From the NCBI RefSeq assembly GCF_009725985.1, contig NZ_RCNR01000022.1, forward strand, positions 1 through 64,000: a stretch of DNA of 64,000 bases, read 5' to 3'. The notes under the pieces are model-generated. The model saw only the letters and a program-made list of their open reading frames with translations. It was not told the origin of the DNA and searched no databases. The translations under genes and the position numbers were made by a program. Below are positions 654 through 61,590 of this stretch, piece after piece; positions within the stretch are counted from its first letter, which is position 1; every line of letters begins with the position of its first letter. The DNA is from Zobellia amurskyensis. GTDB lineage: Bacteria; Bacteroidota; Bacteroidia; Flavobacteriales; Flavobacteriaceae.

Positions 654-1553
654 ATGAACACTTTAAAAAAAACGTTTACCATACGAGATTTAGAAAACCT
701 CTCTGGTATTAAAGCACATACGATTCGGATATGGGAGAAAAGATATAACCTTCTTTCCCCAGAACGTACGGATACCAATATTAGAAGGTATAGCCTGCAA
801 AGCCTACAGAAACTTTTGAACATTACATTGTTATATAGCAACGGACACAAAATATCCAAGATTGCTAATCTTAATGAAAATAAAATACCTGAGCTTGTAA
901 CCGGCTTAGTTTCCAAAAACAATAAAAGTCAGATTATAAATACTTTTAAGTTGTCTATGATCAATTTTGATCAACAACTGTTTACACAAACCTACAAGAC
1001 CCTTCTTCTTGAAAAATCGTTTTCAGAAATCTTCAAAGAAGTATTTGTACCCTTGTTAAACGATCTTGGGTTATTATGGCAGACGGATACCATTTGTCCC
1101 GCACACGAACATTTCATCTCCAACCTTATTAAGCAGAAAATCTTGATTAATACTCAAGAATTGACAATTCCTCAAGATGGTCTAAACAAGAAAACAACAT
1201 TTGTTGCTTATTTGCCAGAGAACGAAATTCATGAAATAGGTTTACTTTATCTGAATTATGAAATTGCTTCCCGTGGATATAAAACGGTTTATCTAGGGCA
1301 AACTGTTCCATTAGAGAATTTAGAAGAGGTTATGAAAACCTTTGATAGCACAACGTTTCTATCTTATTTTACCGTTTCGCCCTCCAAGGATAAAATCAAC
1401 GACTATATTGAACAATTTAATATACTTACTACCAATTACCCAAGTACCCAGCTCTGGCTATTAGGCCATCAGACCCAGCATATAGATTTACAGGGTTTAC
1501 CCAGTACAGTTGAGGTTTTTACTTCAATTGATAAAATAATTGAACAACTTTAA
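654..1553 (+). CDS. CarH/LitR-like MerR regulator with cobalamin-binding domain
   Basis: This 299-residue protein is a probable light- and B12-dependent repressor of the carotenoid genes that follow. Residues 8-75 form a MerR winged-helix DNA-binding domain (IRIWEKRYNLLSPERT is the usual recognition region). Residues about 95-170 fit the four-helix B12-cap domain and carry W142-x9-E152-H153, the Wx9EH signature of CarH-type photoreceptors. Residues about 180-298 form a Rossmann-like cobalamin-binding domain with E191-x-H193-x2-G196, whose His is the lower cobalt ligand in this fold. It lies 20 bases upstream of crtI in the same direction, so it may share the transcript. CarH-type proteins repress crt genes in the dark as adenosylcobalamin-bound tetramers and fall apart in light. 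Domain identity is strong; light sensing in this organism is inferred. Confidence 0.88.
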   Translation: MNTLKKTFTIRDLENLSGIKAHTIRIWEKRYNLLSPERTDTNIRRYSLQSLQKLLNITLLYSNGHKISKIANLNENKIPELVTGLVSKNNKSQIINTFKLSMINFDQQLFTQTYKTLLLEKSFSEIFKEVFVPLLNDLGLLWQTDTICPAHEHFISNLIKQKILINTQELTIPQDGLNKKTTFVAYLPENEIHEIGLLYLNYEIASRGYKTVYLGQTVPLENLEEVMKTFDSTTFLSYFTVSPSKDKINDYIEQFNILTTNYPSTQLWLLGHQTQHIDLQGLPSTVEVFTSIDKIIEQL

Positions 1554-1573: not shown

Positions 1574-3031
1574 ATGCAAAAAAAGATTGCCATAATCGGC
1601 TCAGGTTTCTCATCATTATCTGCTTCATGCTATTTAGCTAAAGAAGGCCATGAGGTAACGATTTATGAGAAAAACCAAACGGTAGGTGGCAGAGCCAGAC
1701 AGCTTATTAGAGATGGCTTTACTTTTGATATGGGACCTAGCTGGTACTGGATGCCGGATATTTTTGATAATTTTTTTAATGATTTTGGAAAGAAAACTTC
1801 AGATTATTATCAGCTAGACAAATTAAGTCCTGCCTATAAAATTTTCTTTGCGGACGACAACATTACTATTGGAGATTGTATAGATAAAATTTGTAAAGAA
1901 TTTGAACGCCTTGAGCCCGGAAGTGCACGCCACCTGAAAAACTTTATTGCCAAGGCACAAAAAAATTATGATATAGCCATTAACAAGGTTGTTCTAAGAC
2001 CAGGCTTATCCCCTTTAGAGCTAATTACACCTGAGACAGCTTTAAGGGTAGACCAATTCTTTAAGACTATTAGCGGAGAAGTTCGAAAAAAATTCAAGAA
2101 CCCTAAATTGGTTTCCACTCTTGAGTTTCCCGTGCTGTTCCTTGGCGCTAAGCCCAATAAAACACCATCCTTTTATAATTTTATGAATTATGCCGATTTT
2201 GGTCTGGGCACATGGCACCCCAAAGGGGGCATGTATGAAATTGTAAAAGCCATGAAAAATCTAGCTCAAGAATTGGGTGTTAAAATATGTACGGATGCAC
2301 CAGCGAGCAAAATAAATGTTGTAGGTGGCCTAGCTTCTGGGATTACTATTCATAATAAGGATATTTCAGCAGATGTTGTATTGAGTGGAGCTGACTATCA
2401 CCACTCCGAAACCTTGCTAGATATAGAATACAGGCAATACTCCGAGTCCTATTGGAACAAAAAGACCTTTGCACCTTCATCATTATTATTTTATATAGGC
2501 TTTGATAAGAAGCTAAAAAATGTAAACCATCATAATCTCTTTTTTGATACTGACTTTGAACGTCATGCTCAAGAAATTTATGATAACCCTAGTTGGCCTA
2601 AAGACCCATTGTTCTATGCAAACTTTCCCTCTATAACAGATTCCAGCATGGCACCAGTAAATTGCGAGACGGGTTTTTTCCTAGTTCCCATAGCTCCAGA
2701 TTTAACAGACACTCCTGAATTACGCAGTCAATATTTTGATATAATTATAGATAGATTTGAAAAACGTACCGAACAAAGTGTAAAATCAAACATCATTTTT
2801 AAAGAGTCCTTCTGTGTAAATGATTTCGTAGAGCAATACAATTCTTATAAAGGTAATGCCTATGGCATGGCCAACACGCTGAGTCAAACCGCCTTTCTAA
2901 GACCTAATTTAAAAAGTAAAAAAGTAAAAAACCTATATTTTACCGGCCAGTTGACTGTACCAGGTCCTGGTGTTCCTCCTGCTTTAATATCGGGCAAGCT
3001 TGTATCCCAATTAATTAATAAGAACATCTAA
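1574..3031 (+). CDS. crtI: phytoene desaturase (CrtI type)
   Basis: This 485-residue FAD-dependent carotenoid desaturase converts colourless phytoene to lycopene by successive dehydrogenations at the membrane. The N-terminus has the dinucleotide-binding fold with GSG at 9-11 and an acidic residue E32 at the end of beta 2, followed by VGGRAR. The C-terminus carries the CrtI signature around YFTGQLTVPGPGVPPALISG, which closes the FAD site. Length is normal for the bacterial family. It is the first enzyme gene of a three-gene run with crtB 11 bases downstream, and sits directly after the CarH-like regulator. Other CrtI-fold enzymes (neurosporene desaturase, CrtN, CrtO) are possible by fold, but pairing with crtB and crtZ favours phytoene desaturase. 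Confidence 0.95.
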   Translation: MQKKIAIIGSGFSSLSASCYLAKEGHEVTIYEKNQTVGGRARQLIRDGFTFDMGPSWYWMPDIFDNFFNDFGKKTSDYYQLDKLSPAYKIFFADDNITIGDCIDKICKEFERLEPGSARHLKNFIAKAQKNYDIAINKVVLRPGLSPLELITPETALRVDQFFKTISGEVRKKFKNPKLVSTLEFPVLFLGAKPNKTPSFYNFMNYADFGLGTWHPKGGMYEIVKAMKNLAQELGVKICTDAPASKINVVGGLASGITIHNKDISADVVLSGADYHHSETLLDIEYRQYSESYWNKKTFAPSSLLFYIGFDKKLKNVNHHNLFFDTDFERHAQEIYDNPSWPKDPLFYANFPSITDSSMAPVNCETGFFLVPIAPDLTDTPELRSQYFDIIIDRFEKRTEQSVKSNIIFKESFCVNDFVEQYNSYKGNAYGMANTLSQTAFLRPNLKSKKVKNLYFTGQLTVPGPGVPPALISGKLVSQLINKNI

Positions 3032-3042
3032 AAGCCAACACT

Positions 3043-3882
3043 ATGAAAGCCCTTTTCGATAAAGTTTCTTACCAGTGCAGCCAGATTGTTACGGAGTCGT
3101 ACAGCACTTCGTTTACATTAGCAACAAAAATGTTATCGTCAACCATTAGAGCAGATATTTACAACATCTATGGCTTTGTACGCTTTGCGGATGAAATTGT
3201 GGATACATTTGACCAGTATGATAAGGAAAAGCTTTTTAATCAATTTGAAGCCAGCCTTAAAGATGCGTTAGAACAAAAGATAAGCCTTAACCCTATTCTC
3301 AATTCTTTTCAGCATACCTATCATAAATATGAATTGCCATATGAACTAGTTGCAGCTTTTATGAAGAGTATGCGAATGGACCTCTACAAGAACGTCTATA
3401 GAACAGATGAAGAATATAAAGAATATATCTATGGATCGGCAGATGTGGTTGGTCTAATGTGTTTAAAGGTCTTCGTAAAAGGTGATATGGAAAAATACAA
3501 TAACTTAAAGGAGACTGCTATGGCGTTGGGTTCTGCCTTTCAAAAAGTAAACTTCCTACGAGACCTTAAAAGCGATTTTGAAGATTTAAACCGTAGTTAC
3601 TTCCCCAACACTGATTTGGCCATGTTGGATGAAGCCTCCAAAACTCGAATCGTAAATGAAATAAAAGCAGATTTTGAACTGGCCTATACAGGTATTCTTC
3701 AATTACCAAATGAGGCTAAATTTGGTGTTTATACAGCCTATAAATACTATTATAGACTATTGAAAAAATTACAACGCACACCGTCGTTGGAAATTAGAAA
3801 GGTGCGTATTCGTGTTCCTAACTACGAGAAATTTGGTGTTTTGGCCAAATCGTACGTAAATTATAAATTGAATTTGGTTTAG
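3043..3882 (+). CDS. crtB: phytoene synthase
   Basis: This 279-residue squalene/phytoene synthase condenses two geranylgeranyl diphosphates into phytoene, the entry step of C40 carotenoid synthesis. The first Mg-diphosphate-binding motif is D50-E-I-V-D54 within GFVRFADEIVDTF. The second is around residues 170-188, with D174 and D178 and the conserved NRSYFP. Length is typical. It lies between crtI and crtZ with gaps of 11 and 1 bases, so the three are almost certainly co-transcribed. Confidence 0.95.
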   Translation: MKALFDKVSYQCSQIVTESYSTSFTLATKMLSSTIRADIYNIYGFVRFADEIVDTFDQYDKEKLFNQFEASLKDALEQKISLNPILNSFQHTYHKYELPYELVAAFMKSMRMDLYKNVYRTDEEYKEYIYGSADVVGLMCLKVFVKGDMEKYNNLKETAMALGSAFQKVNFLRDLKSDFEDLNRSYFPNTDLAMLDEASKTRIVNEIKADFELAYTGILQLPNEAKFGVYTAYKYYYRLLKKLQRTPSLEIRKVRIRVPNYEKFGVLAKSYVNYKLNLV

Positions 3883-3883
3883 T

Positions 3884-4339
3884 ATGAAGACAGTTATTTG
3901 GTTAGCCCTTTTTTTTGGCACATTTTCCTTTATGGAATTTATGGCATGGTTTACCCATAAGTACATTATGCATGGTTTTCTTTGGAGCCTTCACCAAGAT
4001 CACCACAAAAAAGACCATGACTCATGGTTCGAAAGAAATGATGCTTTTTTTGTATTTTACGCCGTTGTAAGCATGGTACTTTTCTATCTTGGTGCTCAAA
4101 CTTCTTTTTGGTATGGCTGGCCCTTAGGTTTTGGTATTCTGGCCTATGGCATTGCTTACTTTCTAGTGCATGATATCTTCATACATCAGCGGTTTAAACT
4201 TTTTAGGAACGCTAATCATTGGTATGCCAAGGGAGTTCGTAGAGCGCATAAAATGCACCACAAACATTTGGGCAAAGGAGATGGAGAATGCTTTGGTATG
4301 CTGATTGTTCCTTTTAAATACTTCAAGAACAAATCATAA
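3884..4339 (+). CDS. crtZ: beta-carotene 3-hydroxylase (CrtZ type)
   Basis: This 151-residue non-haem di-iron hydroxylase of the fatty-acid hydroxylase superfamily turns beta-carotene into zeaxanthin. All histidine clusters are visible: H25/H30, H37-x2-H40-H41, H96/H101 and H122-x2-H125-H126. Hydrophobic segments at about 3-22, 54-72 and 82-98 agree with a membrane protein. Its ATG is one base after the crtB stop, which suggests translational coupling. Its substrate needs a lycopene cyclase, and none is encoded in this window. It converges on the minus-strand thioredoxin gene with only 5 bases between stop codons and no terminator. Confidence 0.94.
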   Translation: MKTVIWLALFFGTFSFMEFMAWFTHKYIMHGFLWSLHQDHHKKDHDSWFERNDAFFVFYAVVSMVLFYLGAQTSFWYGWPLGFGILAYGIAYFLVHDIFIHQRFKLFRNANHWYAKGVRRAHKMHHKHLGKGDGECFGMLIVPFKYFKNKS

Positions 4340-4344
4340 ACTTG

Positions 4345-4905
4345 TTACTCTACTATAAGCTTCTCTAGGAGCCTCCTGACTTCTTCACTGTTCCAATCTA
4401 TAGCACCGTTTTCGGCCATTACTATTTTGCCCTGTTTACTTATGATGTAAGTTGTAGGTATAGTGGTAGATTTAAATATTTCTGGCATATGGTCGTCAGC
4501 TAGATAAAAAGGCAGTCGGTAAGATTTTTTTGAAACGAAACCTTTTACCTTTATAGATTCCTCCTCACTAACTAACATAAAGCTTACCTTATCACTATAA
4601 TCATTGTATAGCGCCTGAATATCCGGCATCTCCTTTAAACAGGGCTTACACCATGTTGCCCATAGATTCAAAAAAACTACTTTTCCTTTGTTCTCTTGAA
4701 AAGCATGTGTTTTACCATTCAGGTCTTTTATTTCCCAATTATAAGTATTTTCGGGAATGGTTTTCTCCGCTTTTAGTTTCACGGATGTATAGGACATGAG
4801 TCTACCCATGTAACCTCTTAATCTAGGCCCTACAGGTGTCAATAAAATGATACAGACCGCAATCAGCAGTACTACTAAGACAATATACTTTAAAGACCGC
4901 TTCAA
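4345..4905 (-). CDS. TlpA-like membrane-anchored thiol-disulfide oxidoreductase
   Basis: This 186-residue protein has one N-terminal membrane anchor (about 7-24) and a periplasmic thioredoxin-fold domain (about 55-185). The active site is intact, with C86-K-P-C89 in WATWCKPC and the cis-proline in TIP(150)TTYII. TlpA/ResA-type proteins reduce disulfides of exported proteins, often in cytochrome c maturation; the partner here is unknown. Its start overlaps the stop of the upstream paralogue by 4 bases (ATGA type), so the two are translated as a pair. It converges on crtZ. Confidence 0.88.
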   Translation of the reverse strand: MKRSLKYIVLVVLLIAVCIILLTPVGPRLRGYMGRLMSYTSVKLKAEKTIPENTYNWEIKDLNGKTHAFQENKGKVVFLNLWATWCKPCLKEMPDIQALYNDYSDKVSFMLVSEEESIKVKGFVSKKSYRLPFYLADDHMPEIFKSTTIPTTYIISKQGKIVMAENGAIDWNSEEVRRLLEKLIVE

Positions 4906-5459
4906 GACTTACCAGCAAGTGAATCTAAAAGTTCGGTAACCGTATTACTATCCCAGTCATGTGTTTCCTCGGTATGAACTACAATATCACCATTTTCATC
5001 AATAATATAAGTCCCTTGAATTTTTGGAATTTTAAGCGGTGCGTCTTGTCCAACAATTCTATAAGTTACAGGAAAGGTGTATTTGTTCTTTGCCATGAAC
5101 TCTTCCACTGGTTCGCGCTCTTCATTGGTAACGATATAAAAATCGACCTTATCGGAATAACTATCGTATAATTTTTGAATACCGTTTAATTCCGCTGCAC
5201 TAGGCGTATTCCATGACGCCCAAAAATGAACGAATGACACTTTACCCTTTGACTCTTGAAAATTAAATAAATTCCAATCTGCATCCTTAAGCTTCCAACC
5301 ATAACCATCAATTTGTTGCCTATCCTCTACCTTAATGATATCTGGAGGAGAAGCAAATAAACGCATTAGCCAAATTTTGCCCCAATAACCTACTGGTGTA
5401 ACAAAAAAGGAAAGCACGAAGGCCATAACAATAAGCGTAAAGAAAGTTTTTCTTTTCAT
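4902..5459 (-). CDS. thioredoxin-fold membrane protein lacking the CxxC active site
   Basis: This 185-residue paralogue of the next gene has the same architecture: an N-terminal membrane segment (about 5-24) followed by TPVG, then a TlpA-like domain. The redox centre is lost. The position matching WCKPC reads WNTPS (N84, S87), and the cis-proline loop TIPTTYII has become KIQGTYII (Q148). The rest of the fold (the GKV-F-FWASW strand, the YSDKV segment, TYIIDENG) is preserved and the frame is intact, so it is not simply a decayed gene. It overlaps the redox-active partner by 4 bases. A structural or binding role beside the partner is inference. Confidence 0.85.
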   Translation of the reverse strand: MKRKTFFTLIVMAFVLSFFVTPVGYWGKIWLMRLFASPPDIIKVEDRQQIDGYGWKLKDADWNLFNFQESKGKVSFVHFWASWNTPSAAELNGIQKLYDSYSDKVDFYIVTNEEREPVEEFMAKNKYTFPVTYRIVGQDAPLKIPKIQGTYIIDENGDIVVHTEETHDWDSNTVTELLDSLAGKS

Positions 5460-30117: not shown

Positions 30118-30702
30118 ATGAAGATATACACCAAAACAGGTGATAAAGGCACTACTGCCTTAATAGGGGGAACACGAGTTAAAAAGCATCATGTTAGAAT
30201 AGAGTGTTACGGTACGGTAGATGAACTAAACTCTTGGTTAGGTTTAGTAAGAGACCAAAATATAGACATAAGGTCTAAACAAACTTTAACCAAAATTCAA
30301 GAAAATCTGTTTGTCATAGGAGCTATTTTAGCTACAGATCCAGACAAAGCTATTCTAAAAAATGGCAAAAAACGTCTGAATATCGCCCAAATAAATACAA
30401 CAGACATTGAATTTCTGGAAAAAGAAATTGATGTAATGGACGAAGCTTTGCCTCAAATGACACACTTTATTCTTCCCGGCGGGCACACGACTGTGTCATA
30501 CTGTCATATTGCCCGGACCGTTTGCAGAAGATCAGAGCGTATGAGTACACTTCTTTATGAAAATGAACCGTTCAATGAAAATGTACTGTTATTTTTGAAC
30601 AGGCTCTCCGACTATTTATTTGTACTGGCACGAAAATTGTCAGAAAACTTACAAGCAGAGGAAATAAAATGGATTCCCGAGAATACAGAAAAAGACAACT
30701 AA
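30118..30702 (+). CDS. cob(I)alamin adenosyltransferase (PduO type)
   Basis: This 194-residue enzyme transfers the adenosyl group of ATP to cob(I)alamin, making adenosylcobalamin. The PduO-type motifs are visible: YTKTGDKGTTALIGG at the N-terminus (ATP binding), YGTVDELNSWLG, and CRRSERMS with LNRLSDYLFVLAR in the C-terminal helices. Length is normal. It supplies the cofactor used by methylmalonyl-CoA mutase (whose chaperone MeaB is encoded at 47.1 kb) and, by inference, by the CarH-like regulator at 0.65 kb. Confidence 0.93.
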   Translation: MKIYTKTGDKGTTALIGGTRVKKHHVRIECYGTVDELNSWLGLVRDQNIDIRSKQTLTKIQENLFVIGAILATDPDKAILKNGKKRLNIAQINTTDIEFLEKEIDVMDEALPQMTHFILPGGHTTVSYCHIARTVCRRSERMSTLLYENEPFNENVLLFLNRLSDYLFVLARKLSENLQAEEIKWIPENTEKDN

Positions 30703-55801: not shown

Positions 55802-57229
55802 TTAATTCCAACCTCCACCTAGGGCTCGGTATACATTAACCACAGCACTCATCTGCTTTTGTTTGGTTTCTATAAGCTCAACTTTTGCTTCTAGGGCATC
55901 ACGTTGCGTTAGTAAAACTTCCATATAATCTGCTCTAGCTGATTTAAACAGTCGGTTTGAAATATCAATCGAAGCCGTTAGCGCATCAACCTCTCGTGAC
56001 CTTAGATCATAACTCTTTTCCAAGTTATCTATTTTCGCTAATTGATTAGCTACCTCAACATAAGCATTCAAAATAGTCTGCTCATAATTGTAAACTGCCT
56101 GTAATTGCTTGGCACTAGCGCCATAATACGCCGCTTTAATCGCATTTCTATTGATCAAGGGAGCGGTCAAATCACCAATTACCGAATAAAGCAAAGATTC
56201 AGGGGTTTCTAATAAATATTTGGTGTTGAAAGACTGAAATCCTATATCTGCGGAAATACCCAAAGAAGGATAGAAACGTGCCTTCGCTACTTTTACGTCT
56301 AATTTTGCAGCTACCAAATCAAGTTCCGCCTCTTTGATGTCAGGGCGATTAGCCAATAACTGAGAAGGCAGACCCAAATGCACAGTCTCCGGAACTAAAT
56401 CCTCAAAACCTTTATGGTCCCGTTCAACATGTTGTGGGTAACGACCGAGCAAAAAGTTAATTTTATTCTCCGTCTGAACAACTTTCTGTTGTATTTCAAA
56501 CTGCAAACTTTTGGTATGAAAAACTTCAGCTTCAAACTTTTTTACCGCCAACTCATTTACTTTGGCAGCAGCTTTTTGAAGCTTTACAATTTCTAAAGCA
56601 TTGCTCTGAATATCAATATTTTGCTTAACAATAGCCAGTTCATTGTCCAAAGCCAGCAATTCATAGTATGAATTGGCTATCTCAGAAATTAGATTGGTAA
56701 CCATAAAATTTCGGCCTTCAATAGAAGACAGATACCGGGTAACCGCTGCTTTTTTAGCATTCCTCAATTTATGCCAAATATCAACTTCCCAATCTATTTC
56801 GGCCGCAACTAGAAAATCACCCAACGGCTCAGGAAATTCTTCTCCAGGCCGTATGTCCGTATTGGCATCGTTCGCGCCTTGACTGGTATATCTACCAACT
56901 TTTTCCAATCCAGCACCTGCTCGCAAGCCAACAAAAGGAAGGTACTCCCCTTTCTTCTCCCTTACCTCACTTTTAGCAATCGCAATTTCTTGCAACACAA
57001 TATTCAACTCCTGATTGTTTTGAAGCGCAATTTCAATAAGGGAGTTCAAATTATCATCCTTAAAATAATCTTTCCACTTTACCGTGGCGGCACTTACCGT
57101 ATCATTCATCTCCCCTGAGTACTGCTCTGGCACGGAAGCATTAGCTTCGCGCACCGTTTTGGTAGGCGCACAAGAATGCAGTACCAGAACCACACAAATG
57201 GAGACCAAAGTCTTAATATGTCTCATCAT
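55802..57229 (-). CDS. outer-membrane efflux channel lipoprotein (NodT/OprM type)
   Basis: This 475-residue TolC-family outer-membrane factor has a lipoprotein signal (C20 in LHSCAPT). Two long helical hairpin repeats (about 60-250 and 265-470) are typical; the second begins near PSQLLANRPDIKEAELDLVAAKLDVKVAKARFYPSL, the signature of the family. It is the third gene of the minus-strand operon, 3 bases after the RND pump stop. Confidence 0.93.
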   Translation of the reverse strand: MMRHIKTLVSICVVLVLHSCAPTKTVREANASVPEQYSGEMNDTVSAATVKWKDYFKDDNLNSLIEIALQNNQELNIVLQEIAIAKSEVREKKGEYLPFVGLRAGAGLEKVGRYTSQGANDANTDIRPGEEFPEPLGDFLVAAEIDWEVDIWHKLRNAKKAAVTRYLSSIEGRNFMVTNLISEIANSYYELLALDNELAIVKQNIDIQSNALEIVKLQKAAAKVNELAVKKFEAEVFHTKSLQFEIQQKVVQTENKINFLLGRYPQHVERDHKGFEDLVPETVHLGLPSQLLANRPDIKEAELDLVAAKLDVKVAKARFYPSLGISADIGFQSFNTKYLLETPESLLYSVIGDLTAPLINRNAIKAAYYGASAKQLQAVYNYEQTILNAYVEVANQLAKIDNLEKSYDLRSREVDALTASIDISNRLFKSARADYMEVLLTQRDALEAKVELIETKQKQMSAVVNVYRALGGGWN

Positions 57230-57232
57230 CTT

Positions 57233-60200
57233 TTAATTTTTTGGATTTTTCTTTCGTGATAGGATTTTCTTTAACATTCTACGTAGTTGACTCACTTGCT
57301 CTTGAGTAACACTTTCCTCTTCCGAAGTTCTGACCAAACCTTCTGTAAAAGGCTCGCTATTTTCATCTCTAATAAGTGAACGGCCATCTGCCATTTTTGC
57401 AAAAACATAGTACAACCCAGGAATCACAAGAACGCCTAACAATGTACCCAATAGCATACCTCCCATTGCCGACCCACCTATGGTACGGTTTCCTATAGCT
57501 CCGGCACCAGTTGCTACAACAAGTGGAATCAAACCTGCTACAAAGGCAAATGATGTCATTAAAATAGGTCTGAAACGCATTTTTGCACCTTCAATAGCCG
57601 CATCCAGTATAGTTGCTCCTTCCCGCTTTTTCTGAACCGCAAATTCTACGATCAATACCGCATTTTTACCTAACAGACCAACTAGCATGATCAAACCGAT
57701 TTGAGCATAAACATCGTTAGCTAATCCCATAGCTTTCAGGAGTAAAAAAGACCCGAAAATACCCACGGGAAGCGATAAAATAACTGCTAATGGCAATAAA
57801 AAACTCTCATATTGAGCTGCCAAGACCAAATAAACAAAAATCAGCACCACTATAAATATGTAAATTGATCCGTTACCTCTGCCCGCTTCGTCATATGAAA
57901 GACCTTCCCAAGCAATATCAAAACCATTTGGCAAACTCTCTTCCGCTACTTCACGAATAGCCTTAATGGCATCTCCACTTGTGAAACCTGGCGCAGGCAA
58001 ACCTCTAATAGCTGCGGAATTATAAAGATTATAACGCGTAATTTCATTTGGCCCTAAACGCTTTTCAAGTTTCATAAATGACGAATAAGACACCATCTCC
58101 CCTTTTTCATTTTTCACAAAAAGTTGTTCAAGGTCAGATGGCATACGTCTATATTCCGGGGCAGCTTGTGTATACACTTTAAAGAAGCGTCCATATTTTA
58201 TAAAGCCCTGTTCATAGGTACTACCAATTAAAATATTCAGATTTTCCATAGCTTTACCTATGGACACCCCTTTTTGCATTGCCGCCTTGTTATCTACGAC
58301 TAATTCATACTGAGGATAATTGGCCGCAAAAAAAGTAAAGAGACCGGTAAGTTCTTCTCTCTTACTAAGGGCATCCATAAATTCATTGTTTATTCTTTCA
58401 AATTCATGGTAATCCGTGTTATCCGTTTTATCCAAAAGACGCATAGAAAAACCACCTGACGAACCAAAACCAGGTACTGCTGGTGGTTCAAAAAATTCAA
58501 TAACGGCCCCCAAATCTTTGCTTTCTTCCTCAAGTTCTTCCATTACCTCATGTACAGACTCATGCCGCTCAGACCATGGTTTTAAGTTGATAAGACAGGT
58601 ACCCGCATTAGAACCACGACCTTCTGTCATAATCTCATAACCAGCTAATGATGAAACTGATTCCACCGCATCCATTTCTTCACATAAGGCCTGAAGTTTA
58701 TGAGCCACTTCATTAGTACGCTCTAAAGTTGCCCCAGGTGGCGTTTGAATAATAGCATATATAGTTCCTTGATCCTCATTAGGAATAAAACCAGCAGGTA
58801 AAGTCTCATTCGTAAAGAATATACCTACACAGAAGGCTATCAAAATTCCAAAAGTAACCACACGCCTATTCACTATGTACTTAAGCACATTCACATATCT
58901 GCCCGTGAGCTTTTCAAAACCTCTATTGAACCAATCTATAAACCGATCAACAATTGATTTTTTTCTTGGCACACCATGGTTATTCTTCAAAATCATGGCA
59001 CACAATACCGGGGTGAGAGTAAGTGCAACAATGGCCGAGATGATAATGGAGCCCGCCATAGTAATACTAAATTGGCGGTAAAACACCCCTACAGGTCCGG
59101 TCATAAAAGAAATAGGAACGAATACGGATACCATTACCATAGTAATGGCAATAATAGCCCCACCAATTTCACCTATCACCTGCTTAACCGCCTGATAAGG
59201 ATTTAGATGTTCTTCTTCCATCTTAGCATGGACGGCTTCAACCACAACAATAGCATCATCTACCACAATACCAATAGCTAAAACCAAGGCAAACAGAGTA
59301 ATTAAGTTGATGGACAGGCCAAAAAGTTGCATAACAAAAAAAGCTCCGATTAAGGAAACCGGTACGGCAATGATAGGAATGAGGGTTGAACGCCAATCGC
59401 CCAAGAAGAGAAAGACTACAATGGCCACTAAGATAAAGGCATCGCGTAAGGTGTGAACAACTTGTTCTATTGAGGCATCCAAAAAATTGGAAACATCATA
59501 ACTTATTTGATAGTCGATGCCCGGTGGTAGATTTTCTTTAAGCTCTTTTAACTTATCCTTTACCGAATCGATTACATCACTCGCATTACTTCCAAAGGTT
59601 TGCTTGAGTACTACCGATGCAGATGGTTTTCCATCCAAATTAGAGTAAATATCAAAAAACTCACTCCCCAATTCTACATCTGCAATATCTTTTAAAGTAA
59701 GTATCTCCCCCTCTTCATTGGCCTTTATAATGATATCTTTATACTGATCCGCCTCATTATACCTACCTTCATAAGTGAGTACATACTCTAAGGCCTGAGA
59801 TTTTTTACCTGAACTACGCCCCAAACGACCCGGTCTTGCAATAACACTTTGCTCGTCCATAGCCTCAAGGACTTCTTCTGCGGAAATATTGTAAGCCCGC
59901 ATACGATCAGGTTTTAACCAAACTCGCATAGCATATTTTCTACTACCCAATATTTTGGCACTGGCAACCCCTGTTATACGTTGAAGCTCCGGTACTATTT
60001 TGGTGTACGCATAATTGTATAGGAACTTTTCATCGTTCTTTTTAGAGCTACTAAAAAGATTCACGTACATTAACATACTAGGTTGAACAGGGGTAATAAT
60101 AACCCCCTCTCGCTGAACCAATGGTGGCAACAGAGGCATTACCTGATCCACCCGGGTCTTCACCCTTACCACCGCTTCGTTTGGGTCCGTGCCAGGTTCA

Positions 60201-60481
60201 AATATGATACGCAAGGTACCCTCTCCGGCACTAGTGGCGTCAGATGCAATATAGCGCATGTCCTGCACCCCGTTGATTGCCGTTTCTATAGGTATTAAGG
60301 TGGACTTTACTAATACATCCGCACTTGCCCCTGGGTACGCTATGAATATATTAACTGTTGTAGGAGCAATTTGTGGAAACTGTGATATAGGCAATTGTTT
60401 AATGGACAAGAGCCCCACAAAAACGATAATTACCGAAATTACAATAGCCAGAACTGGCCGTTTTATAAATCTACTGAACAT
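57233..60481 (-). CDS. RND multidrug efflux pump inner-membrane subunit (HAE1 family)
   Basis: This 1082-residue AcrB-like proton antiporter begins MFSRFIKRPVLAIVISVIIV. It has 12 membrane helices, two large periplasmic loops, and the proton-relay aspartates D408-D409 in AIGIVVDDAIVVVEAVH, matching E. coli AcrB D407/D408. The periplasmic start LPISQFPQIAPTTVNIFIAYPGASADVL is typical of drug-type (HAE1) rather than heavy-metal pumps. A charged C-terminal tail of about 50 residues extends past the last helix. Substrates cannot be predicted. Confidence 0.95.
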   Translation of the reverse strand: MFSRFIKRPVLAIVISVIIVFVGLLSIKQLPISQFPQIAPTTVNIFIAYPGASADVLVKSTLIPIETAINGVQDMRYIASDATSAGEGTLRIIFEPGTDPNEAVVRVKTRVDQVMPLLPPLVQREGVIITPVQPSMLMYVNLFSSSKKNDEKFLYNYAYTKIVPELQRITGVASAKILGSRKYAMRVWLKPDRMRAYNISAEEVLEAMDEQSVIARPGRLGRSSGKKSQALEYVLTYEGRYNEADQYKDIIIKANEEGEILTLKDIADVELGSEFFDIYSNLDGKPSASVVLKQTFGSNASDVIDSVKDKLKELKENLPPGIDYQISYDVSNFLDASIEQVVHTLRDAFILVAIVVFLFLGDWRSTLIPIIAVPVSLIGAFFVMQLFGLSINLITLFALVLAIGIVVDDAIVVVEAVHAKMEEEHLNPYQAVKQVIGEIGGAIIAITMVMVSVFVPISFMTGPVGVFYRQFSITMAGSIIISAIVALTLTPVLCAMILKNNHGVPRKKSIVDRFIDWFNRGFEKLTGRYVNVLKYIVNRRVVTFGILIAFCVGIFFTNETLPAGFIPNEDQGTIYAIIQTPPGATLERTNEVAHKLQALCEEMDAVESVSSLAGYEIMTEGRGSNAGTCLINLKPWSERHESVHEVMEELEEESKDLGAVIEFFEPPAVPGFGSSGGFSMRLLDKTDNTDYHEFERINNEFMDALSKREELTGLFTFFAANYPQYELVVDNKAAMQKGVSIGKAMENLNILIGSTYEQGFIKYGRFFKVYTQAAPEYRRMPSDLEQLFVKNEKGEMVSYSSFMKLEKRLGPNEITRYNLYNSAAIRGLPAPGFTSGDAIKAIREVAEESLPNGFDIAWEGLSYDEAGRGNGSIYIFIVVLIFVYLVLAAQYESFLLPLAVILSLPVGIFGSFLLLKAMGLANDVYAQIGLIMLVGLLGKNAVLIVEFAVQKKREGATILDAAIEGAKMRFRPILMTSFAFVAGLIPLVVATGAGAIGNRTIGGSAMGGMLLGTLLGVLVIPGLYYVFAKMADGRSLIRDENSEPFTEGLVRTSEEESVTQEQVSQLRRMLKKILSRKKNPKN

Positions 60482-60507
60482 AATTTTTTGGTATTTAAGG
60501 TTGGATA

Positions 60508-61590
60508 TTACTCTGCATAGAGATCAAGAAGCGCCAATTGTTTCTTAGGCGCCATGAAATCTGGCTCTACATGACTACCTTCCTTTACCAACCGAATACC
60601 TTCGAGCAGTACTTTATCGTTTTTAGACAATCCCTCTTGCACAACAAATAGATGCGGCAATTCGGAACTAACCGTAACTTCTTTTTGATGAACTACATTG
60701 TTTTCATCAAGTACAAAAACATACTTTTTGTCAAGAACTTCAAAGGTTGCTTTTTGGGGAATGATAAGCACATCATTAAGGGACATTTTCATTAAGACAT
60801 TTCCCGTTTCTCCATGGCGTAAAATGCCTTTAGGATTGGGAAAGGTTGCTCTAAAAGCTATATTACCTGTCTCATTATTGAATTCCCCTTCTATAGTTTC
60901 TACTATTCCTTCTTGATCAAATTTTTGGTTATTGGCCATCAGCAACTCTACTCCTACTCTATCTTCGGAACTGCCGCTAAGGGCATAATTTAAGTATTCT
61001 GCTTCGGACACATTAAAGTAAACCCACATTTTGCTATTATCGGATAAAGAGGTAAGTAACTCGCCCTCATCCAATAGGCTGCCTTCCCTTACCATAAGGT
61101 GATCTATAATTCCATCAAAAGGAGCCCGGATATCGGTGAAACTTAAGTGTGTTTCTGCCATAGCAACTTCTGCCTTAGCTTTATCATACTTGGCCTTGCT
61201 CATAGCTAGCTCATTTGGAGAAACCACATAACTGTCCGCTAATAATTGAGTGTTCTGGTATTCAATTTTAGCTACTTCGGCTTCCGCATCAGCTCTTTGC
61301 AACTCTGACTTATAGACCTTGTCCATAATCTTGAACATAGGTTGACCCTTCTTTACATGTTGGCCCTCATCTACAAATATGTTTTTTAAATATCCCTTTT
61401 CCAGAGCCCTAAGTTCTATATTTCTATAAGAATGTATCTGACAAACATAATTCTTAGTTATAGTCGTATCCATCTTTATTGGATTGGTAACTAGGTACTT
61501 TGCTTCTTTTTCTTTGTGTTTTTTTTCTGATTTACAACTTGAGTGGAACAATAGCACAGACAAGCTCATGAGCATGAAGATTCTTCTCAT
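60508..61590 (-). CDS. RND efflux periplasmic adaptor lipoprotein (MFP)
   Basis: This 360-residue membrane fusion protein has a lipobox at C19 (LFHSSCKSEKK). The lipoyl-like half motifs (RALEKGYLKNIFVDEGQHVKKGQPMF and TDIRAPFDGIIDHLMVREGSLLDEGELL) flank a short helical hairpin (about 85-140), followed by the beta-barrel and membrane-proximal domains. It is the first gene of the efflux operon. No TetR or other regulator is adjacent. Confidence 0.93.
   Translation of the reverse strand: MRRIFMLMSLSVLLFHSSCKSEKKHKEKEAKYLVTNPIKMDTTITKNYVCQIHSYRNIELRALEKGYLKNIFVDEGQHVKKGQPMFKIMDKVYKSELQRADAEAEVAKIEYQNTQLLADSYVVSPNELAMSKAKYDKAKAEVAMAETHLSFTDIRAPFDGIIDHLMVREGSLLDEGELLTSLSDNSKMWVYFNVSEAEYLNYALSGSSEDRVGVELLMANNQKFDQEGIVETIEGEFNNETGNIAFRATFPNPKGILRHGETGNVLMKMSLNDVLIIPQKATFEVLDKKYVFVLDENNVVHQKEVTVSSELPHLFVVQEGLSKNDKVLLEGIRLVKEGSHVEPDFMAPKKQLALLDLYAE

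Follow-up and report, generated by a model that had tools for sequence, protein, structure and literature searches.

How is the carotenoid operon of Zobellia amurskyensis controlled, and does the regulator gene beside it encode a vitamin B12-dependent light sensor? The locus lies near the left end of a 64,000-nucleotide stretch of this genome (assembly GCF_009725985.1, contig NZ_RCNR01000022.1, positions 1–64,000; the window). A carH-like gene (654–1553, + strand; ATG start, 299 aa), encoding a MerR DNA-binding domain and a cobalamin-binding domain, is followed by crtI (phytoene desaturase, 1574–3031, +; NCBIfam CrtID, 714.8 bits against a cut-off of 640), crtB (phytoene synthase family, 3043–3882, +; PF00494, E 5.9e-47) and a crtZ-like open reading frame (ORF; 3884–4339, +), which takes its name from its position and from the first reading of the sequence and gave only sub-threshold family matches. 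In the ORF list the intergenic gaps are 20, 11 and 1 bases and all four genes lie on one strand, so the original prediction, which took two cobalamin motifs and a 20-base distance to crtI as grounds for inferring light-switched carotenoid synthesis, had the arrangement right. We conclude that the gene probably encodes a flavobacterial CarH-type adenosylcobalamin (AdoCbl) repressor that would be bound in the dark to a predicted operator at 631–660 and released by light, thereby controlling carH-crtI-crtB-crtZ. The computed support consists of pocket conservation, the predicted fold, operator conservation and a link to AdoCbl supply. AdoCbl binding by the regulator is well supported, the binding itself being expected by analogy with the CarH family; repression and light release we infer from the same family.

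Two Pfam domains of the regulator scored above cut-off, MerR_1 (E 4e-13) and B12-binding_2 (E 3.9e-9). The MerR winged-helix domain (675–872, +; PF13411, residues 8–73) carries an RxWEKRY recognition helix (RIWEKRY, residues 25–31), one conservative Arg to Lys change away from the class sequence RxWERRY. The B12-binding_2 four-helix bundle (936–1142, +; PF02607, residues 95–163), predicted to form the upper face of the cofactor pocket, appears in the structure model as helices 91–103, 107–118, 123–143 and 149–168. A Rossmann subdomain (1197–1550, +) follows with five modelled strands (182–186, 210–215, 233–238, 265–270 and 286–288). With Foldseek's top chains realigned, the CarH fold is predicted for the regulator: the model has the four-helix bundle and five-strand Rossmann cobalamin-binding fold of CarH / class I LitR. 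By sequence, the closest solved proteins are Thermus CarH/LitR (3whp, 5c8d; E about 3e-13). The Wx9EH motif W142-x9-E152-H153 (1077–1112, +) and E191-x-H193-x2-G196 (1224–1241, +), whose His193 is the predicted lower cobalt ligand, are in the translation exactly where the original prediction had placed them, and in an alignment with CarH the residues W142, E152, H153, E191, H193 and G196 fall on Thermus W131, E141, H142, E175, H177 and G180.

Conservation was measured in two sets of relatives. The family was taken as Flavobacteriaceae from its named relatives; at E ≤ 1e-10 a homologue was present in 96 of 120 family genomes, and 96 of the 97 homologues were used (L088 was dropped as a truncated protein). 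The named relatives are the best 80 of at least 580, and five carH genes are common to both sets. W142, E152, E191 and H193 are each found in 96/96 family proteins, as are the recognition-helix residues R25, W27, E28, R30 and Y31; G196 is kept in 90 and H153 in 83. Among the named relatives G139, W142, E152, H153, E191, H193 and G196 are each 80/80. The cofactor pocket is the best-conserved part of the regulator family, C-terminal identity being 41%. Natural upper-pocket variants occur: His153 is Arg in 11/96 proteins (L049, L057–L060, L062, L067, L073–L075, L086) and Ser in two (L066, L080), with W142, E152 and H193 kept in both groups. A relative encoded on a Persicobacter psychrovividus plasmid (L106, 26.5% identical) keeps the Trp-His pair; its aligned Glu-His is Thr-Asp and its cobalt His is Glu, and it is perhaps a B12-independent form outside the family.

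We next consider where such a regulator would bind. A predicted −7 promoter box, TAAATTTG (625–632, +), was read from the sequence upstream of carH; TAnnTTTG is the Bacteroidetes −7 consensus, with the start site 4–5 nt beyond the box (PMC6847099), and by this spacing carH transcription is expected to start at about 636–637. The motif TTTGTTTAA was found upstream of carH in 56/96 family loci (dinucleotide-preserving shuffles: mean 1.95, maximum 5), exactly at −25 in 42 of them. Its interpretation as a promoter box with a lone half-site was dropped when a second half-site was seen over the start codon. Inverted repeats beginning TGT are most frequent at an overall length of 30 (13/96 loci; shuffle mean 0.15, maximum 1), with the consensus TGTTTAA-N16-TTAAACA over 30 bp at carH or crtI promoters; the conserved element is a 30-bp inverted repeat, direct repeats not having been searched for separately. 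In the window it corresponds to a predicted operator at 631–660 (no strand assigned), an imperfect inverted repeat with half-sites TGTTTAA (631–637) and ATGAACA (654–660), which is the only match to the consensus with two or fewer mismatches in the 64 kb (it has two).

The distribution of the repeat was then examined under a strict rule (30 bp, 9-base arms, at least 8 paired). Among 172 distinct loci, with the duplicates of the five shared carH genes removed, 55 strict repeats were found. Of these, 32 lie no more than 130 bases ahead of crtI, 15 lie ahead of carH and 8 elsewhere, three of the eight also reading TGTTTAA...TTAAACA. The crtI and carH promoter zones make up 2.3% of the scanned sequence yet hold 47 of the 55, and ten shuffles gave 2 to 16 repeats anywhere (shuffles for the 30-bp scans preserve single-base composition only). 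No strict repeat occurs in the window, the window copy being imperfect. The repeats at crtI promoters have the consensus TGTTTAACTTTTttaTATATTTGTTAAACA with a −7 box inside (a scan in which the duplicates were left in). With crtI starts extrapolated from tblastn matches, 0 to 4 bases separate the repeat from the ATG in 31 of 32 cases, and in the remaining one the repeat runs one base into it; given the 4–5 base spacing from −7 box to start, a crtI message under such a repeat would be almost leaderless. Judged from sequence only, a predicted inverted repeat of either form is present at the carH or crtI promoter in 132/172 distinct loci. Control of the crt operon, which the original prediction had argued from gene position, is now backed by this conserved predicted operator. 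A genome-wide regulon was considered and rejected: TANNTTTGTTTAA occurs 13 times in the organism's own genome against 19 for a reversed control, and only at the carH site and L110 does an ORF start within 30 bases downstream.

The second half-site, ATGAACA, takes in the carH start codon and codon 2 and ends on the first base of codon 3. Of the 108 distinct genes that carry TGTTTA at −23, 105 have AAC as codon 2, two have GAC, one has AGC and none has AAT; the wobble base is C in 108/108, also in the three that do not encode Asn there. In the remainder of these genes AAC accounts for 34% of Asn codons, and the C share at 26 other conserved two-fold codons has a mean of 34% and a maximum of 56%. 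Among 63 genes without TGTTTA at −23, C occupies the codon-2 wobble place in 19, which argues against a general AAC preference after ATG. Common descent alone seems a poor explanation for the fixed C because the proteins of the TGTTTA set have diverged (58% mean identity, at least 38% among 600 sampled pairs). The second half-site fits TnnACA in 104/106. Repeated sequences were removed before these counts by 25 upstream plus 12 coding bases (107 and 63 left), by 25 plus 9 (106 left) or by whole gene (108).

The recognition helix and the half-site appear to change together. Seven of the 96 proteins have Lys26 with Ser or Thr at 29, positions that are Ile and Lys in 83/96. TGTC-N22-GACA, again 30 bases, lies upstream of carH in five of these seven loci, and twice in four of them, 51–52 bases apart (paired repeats in L091, L092, L094 and L096). 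This pattern fixes just eight bases; it occurs five times in 661,620 bases of the other loci, and the strict rule recovers one of the five TGTC loci (L094). The joint change, at the level of sequence comparison, favours the view that the regulator itself binds the repeat as its operator, and the seven, a single clade-like group, may represent a single event.

We asked whether the regulator is accompanied by a supply of its presumed cofactor. One PduO-type cobalamin adenosyltransferase was found in the Zobellia genome, and it lies in the window (30118–30702, +; PF01923, E 1.1e-59; single match genome-wide); the genome also has methylmalonyl-CoA mutase and a cobalamin riboswitch. A BtuR-type adenosyltransferase (PF02572) was found in none of 17 genomes tested and gave no match in the Zobellia genome. 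PduO is present in 109/120 family genomes (absent from 4/96 with the regulator and 7/24 without), and therefore its mere presence is hardly informative. More can be learned from the 47 of 397 genomes that gave no match to methylmalonyl-CoA mutase, some of which may lack it through incompleteness (completeness down to 66%). In these an adenosyltransferase accompanies the regulator in 22/24 genomes and is found in 6/23 without it (Fisher p 4.6e-6); by genus the figures are 12/13 and 5/14 (p 0.0044). G139, W142, E152, E191 and H193 are kept in all 23 mutase-less loci read, which include copies of four first-set genomes (G002, G043, G065, G067); the 24th, G064, is locus L031. The class II ribonucleotide reductase NrdJ was rejected as a reason for keeping the adenosyltransferase: none of the 22 genomes tested (of 397) had a match over cut-off, and all 22 had sub-threshold matches. 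PF02310 exceeded its cut-off once each in G002, G043 (99% complete) and G065, in frames of 899–919 residues, the size of methionine synthase; no PF02310 protein was found in G067 (87% complete), AdoCbl enzymes beyond NrdJ and PF02310 not having been searched for by name.

In the CarH family an AdoCbl-loaded oligomer binds DNA in the dark and photolysis releases it (PMC8156234, PMC9758184). By analogy, AdoCbl made by the PduO enzyme would be held in the dark with its adenosyl group under W142, E152 and H153 of the four-helix bundle and its cobalt bound by H193 of the Rossmann subdomain. The loaded regulator would oligomerise and occupy the inverted repeat, which begins inside the −7 box, crosses the expected start site and runs through the start codon to the first base of codon 3; the single visible carH-crtI-crtB-crtZ promoter would therefore be shut and carH would repress itself. 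Light would break the Co–C bond, the oligomer would loosen and the operon would be expressed. Because the position of Thermus His132 is Gln143 here, a bis-His light state is improbable for proteins with this Gln. More tentatively, as a real possibility rather than an expectation, we propose a Flavobacteriaceae-wide B12 photoreceptor that leaves the dark state without bis-His ligation; that uses a two-fold symmetric 30-bp operator, the second half of which in many lineages (108/172 loci) lies in its own start codon and codon 2, where the same bases would have to serve both the protein and the operator; and for which several small-genome lineages would keep an adenosyltransferase apparently for little or nothing else.

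A number of findings weigh against the light-released AdoCbl repressor. The regulator's best NCBIfam match, TransRegCarH (E 7.5e-20), reaches 71.3 bits against a cut-off of 400, and because this score is so far below it the regulator is a distant CarH relative rather than a recognised CarH equivalog; the Rossmann B12-binding model PF02310 is not among its four Pfam matches. Residue 143 is Gln in the window protein and in 82/96 relatives (His in 3/96). Of the B12-based CarH reading in the original prediction, the AdoCbl part is well supported, with invariant pocket residues, a predicted CarH fold and adenosyltransferase retention behind it; Gln143 speaks against a plain copy of the Thermus mechanism. 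The Thermus Arg that we take to be R176 aligns with Ile192 (Ile in 75/96), and the Thermus D201 position is T217 (Ser, Asn or Thr in 94/96, never Asp). The SxT/V and GG remainder of the classic B12 motif, as set out in PMC9304148, is replaced in the window by S237-Y-F239 and L270-G271; in the family the Ser place is Ser in 72/96 and Thr in 21/96, the T/V place is Phe in 73, and the first Gly of GG is replaced in at least 92/96, the second being kept in 94/96. The window by itself gives no significance to the operator, with 13 matches at three or fewer mismatches against 17.6 expected; because the window match is no better than chance, the operator's significance rests on the relatives. By the rules used, 40/172 distinct loci have neither operator form, and the TGTC repeat is missing at two of the seven Lys26 loci. 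On the supply side, the Fisher tests take genomes or genera as independent, and relatedness is not fully removed; among 24 better genomes the association is only marginally significant (10/12 and 4/12, p 0.036); and PduO is still found in 6/23 genomes without regulator or mutase match. Four of the 96 regulator genomes lack both PduO and BtuR (G008, G048, G062, G064). G064 (99% complete) and G280 (96%), two genomes of one genus with 1.6–1.7 Mb in which neither PduO nor methylmalonyl-CoA mutase was found, carry regulators (L031, L121) with an intact pocket, which weakens the cofactor argument. Light induction is described for Chryseobacterium lacus in a paper that found neither car nor lit genes (PMC7064467); on this example flavobacteria may have other light sensors.

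The residue at 143 bears on an alternative in which the protein is an AdoCbl-dependent repressor that senses B12 status rather than light, with no photolytic release from DNA and carotenoids rising only when AdoCbl is scarce. The prevalence of Gln143 suits it, as does the Thermus H132A variant, which is reported to stay mostly tetrameric in light (PMC10442372, which also cites an earlier report of disassembly), and the AdoCbl-supply link fits it equally well. Gln143 is compatible with photoswitching, however: light responses are known for a photocobilin that has Gln at the His132 place and for CtMerR, which has Arg there (PMC11796333). The His after the Trp is not universal in the CarH family, being reported for 'many' myxobacterial CarH proteins (PMC9304148). 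The close pairing with carotenoid genes would also fit photoprotection better than vitamin sensing, and we regard a B12-status sensor as unlikely.

The genus with a regulator and no adenosyltransferase found (G064, G280) speaks for a B12-independent repressor of the CarA type, in which the pocket is a relic and repression is relieved by an antirepressor, a light-oxygen-voltage (LOV) protein or an oxidative signal. In Myxococcus, CarA needs no B12 to function yet keeps the lower B12 motif (PMC9304148, PMC8156234). CarA, however, lacks the Trp of Wx9EH (PMC9304148), which is invariant here. A relic pocket, moreover, would not be the most conserved part of the protein, and the Persicobacter relative, with its aligned Glu, His and cobalt His lost, shows that loss is possible. 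This explanation seems distinctly improbable to us. The MerR-type DNA-binding domain raises one more, that of a classical MerR-style activator. Activation by distortion of a long promoter spacer is common among MerR proteins. The repeat at carH, however, extends from the −7 box past the expected start site into the start codon, and at crtI it holds the whole −7 box, positions that suit blocking rather than activation; we consider activation very improbable indeed.

The regulator is of a known kind (CarH / class I LitR); it keeps the sensor pocket and lacks several Thermus-specific features. It shares with the proteins of Thermus thermophilus (PDB 5C8D, 5C8E), Myxococcus xanthus and Bacillus megaterium the MerR, four-helix and Rossmann order, Wx9EH, and ExHx2G with the cobalt His; like them it adjoins carotenoid genes and has an operator, here a predicted one, overlapping the promoter. 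The half-site core TnnACA agrees with the 11-bp Thermus consensus nAnnTnnACAn (PMC8156234). It differs from Thermus CarH in overall sequence (about 25% identity over 78% of the query), in having Gln143 for the light-state ligand His132, no Arg-Asp pair and Leu-Gly for GG, and in a predicted 30-bp inverted repeat where the Thermus and B. megaterium operators have three or four 11-bp direct repeats. Membership of class II LitR, in which the four-helix bundle is retained and the second B12 domain is not (PMC9758184), does not fit the five-strand Rossmann subdomain with His193. Myxococcus CarA has the same domain order and is a dark repressor of crt genes. Photocobilins (8J2W) control enzymes, bind biliverdin as well and are not MerR regulators (PMC11796333), and for CtMerR of Chloracidobacterium thermophilum (PDB 8JBS, 8JBT) and the photocobilins the available part of that paper describes no operator. 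The same paper covers 1,561 signature proteins, among which flavobacterial members may be included. In Nonlabens spongiae a 'MerR' gene, presumably an orthologue, stands first in a flavobacterial crt cluster, and the available text makes no B12, light or operator claim for it (PMC11855829). MliR of Bizionia was rejected as the same gene, having no effector domain according to its abstract (PMC9478572). Among the open-licence PMC papers listed by the searches made, we recognised none on CarH in Flavobacteriaceae or on the 30-bp operator.

The association with carotenoid genes extends across the family. A crt gene lies within the fetched stretch for 96 of the 97 homologues, and in 87/97 no more than 300 bases separate carH from the start of a downstream crtI or crtB gene of like orientation (exceptions L061, L064, L084, L091–L096 and L098). 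Among the named relatives, headed by Zobellia russellii (81% identical), crtI is just downstream in 78/80. In many small genomes, namely at four family loci (L044, L050, L065, L076) and 16 of the 23 mutase-lacking loci, two genomes being in both lists, crtB directly follows carH and crtI was not seen in the fetched stretch. A divergent group (L091–L096, L098) has carH facing crtI on the opposite strand, and in L092 a large secreted-repeat-like ORF, fasciclin-like as far as its own sequence can be read, lies between the two. Two loci gave no crt match in the stretch: L200 (Robertkochia) and L236, a metagenome-bin contig titled Rhizobium sp. Q54 that carries a 55% identical flavobacterial-type carH and whose assignment is probably a binning error.

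Upstream of the carH operon in the window is a tRNA-Leu gene with anticodon gag (416–500, +; ARAGORN). Among the 94 family loci long enough for the test (two more were too short), 57 have the same tRNA no more than 1.2 kb upstream of carH; in the named set it lies upstream on the carH strand in 41 of 78 testable loci. Beyond the operon, two adjoining thioredoxin-fold-like genes, so named from reading their sequence, point towards it (4345–5459, −), and a resistance-nodulation-division (RND) efflux set of membrane-fusion protein, AcrB-type transporter and outer-membrane efflux protein occupies 55802–61590 (−).

The natural CarH variants described here (Gln143, Arg153) bear on how the light state is attained by B12 photoreceptors that have no second His. 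In sunlit water Flavobacteriaceae are abundant as heterotrophs; many are yellow, and many have proteorhodopsin, whose retinal derives from the same carotenoid pathway. If the proposed mechanism is true, a B12-dependent light switch would tie the pigment synthesis of much of the family, given that the regulator is found in 96 of the 120 sampled genomes, to vitamin supply and light.
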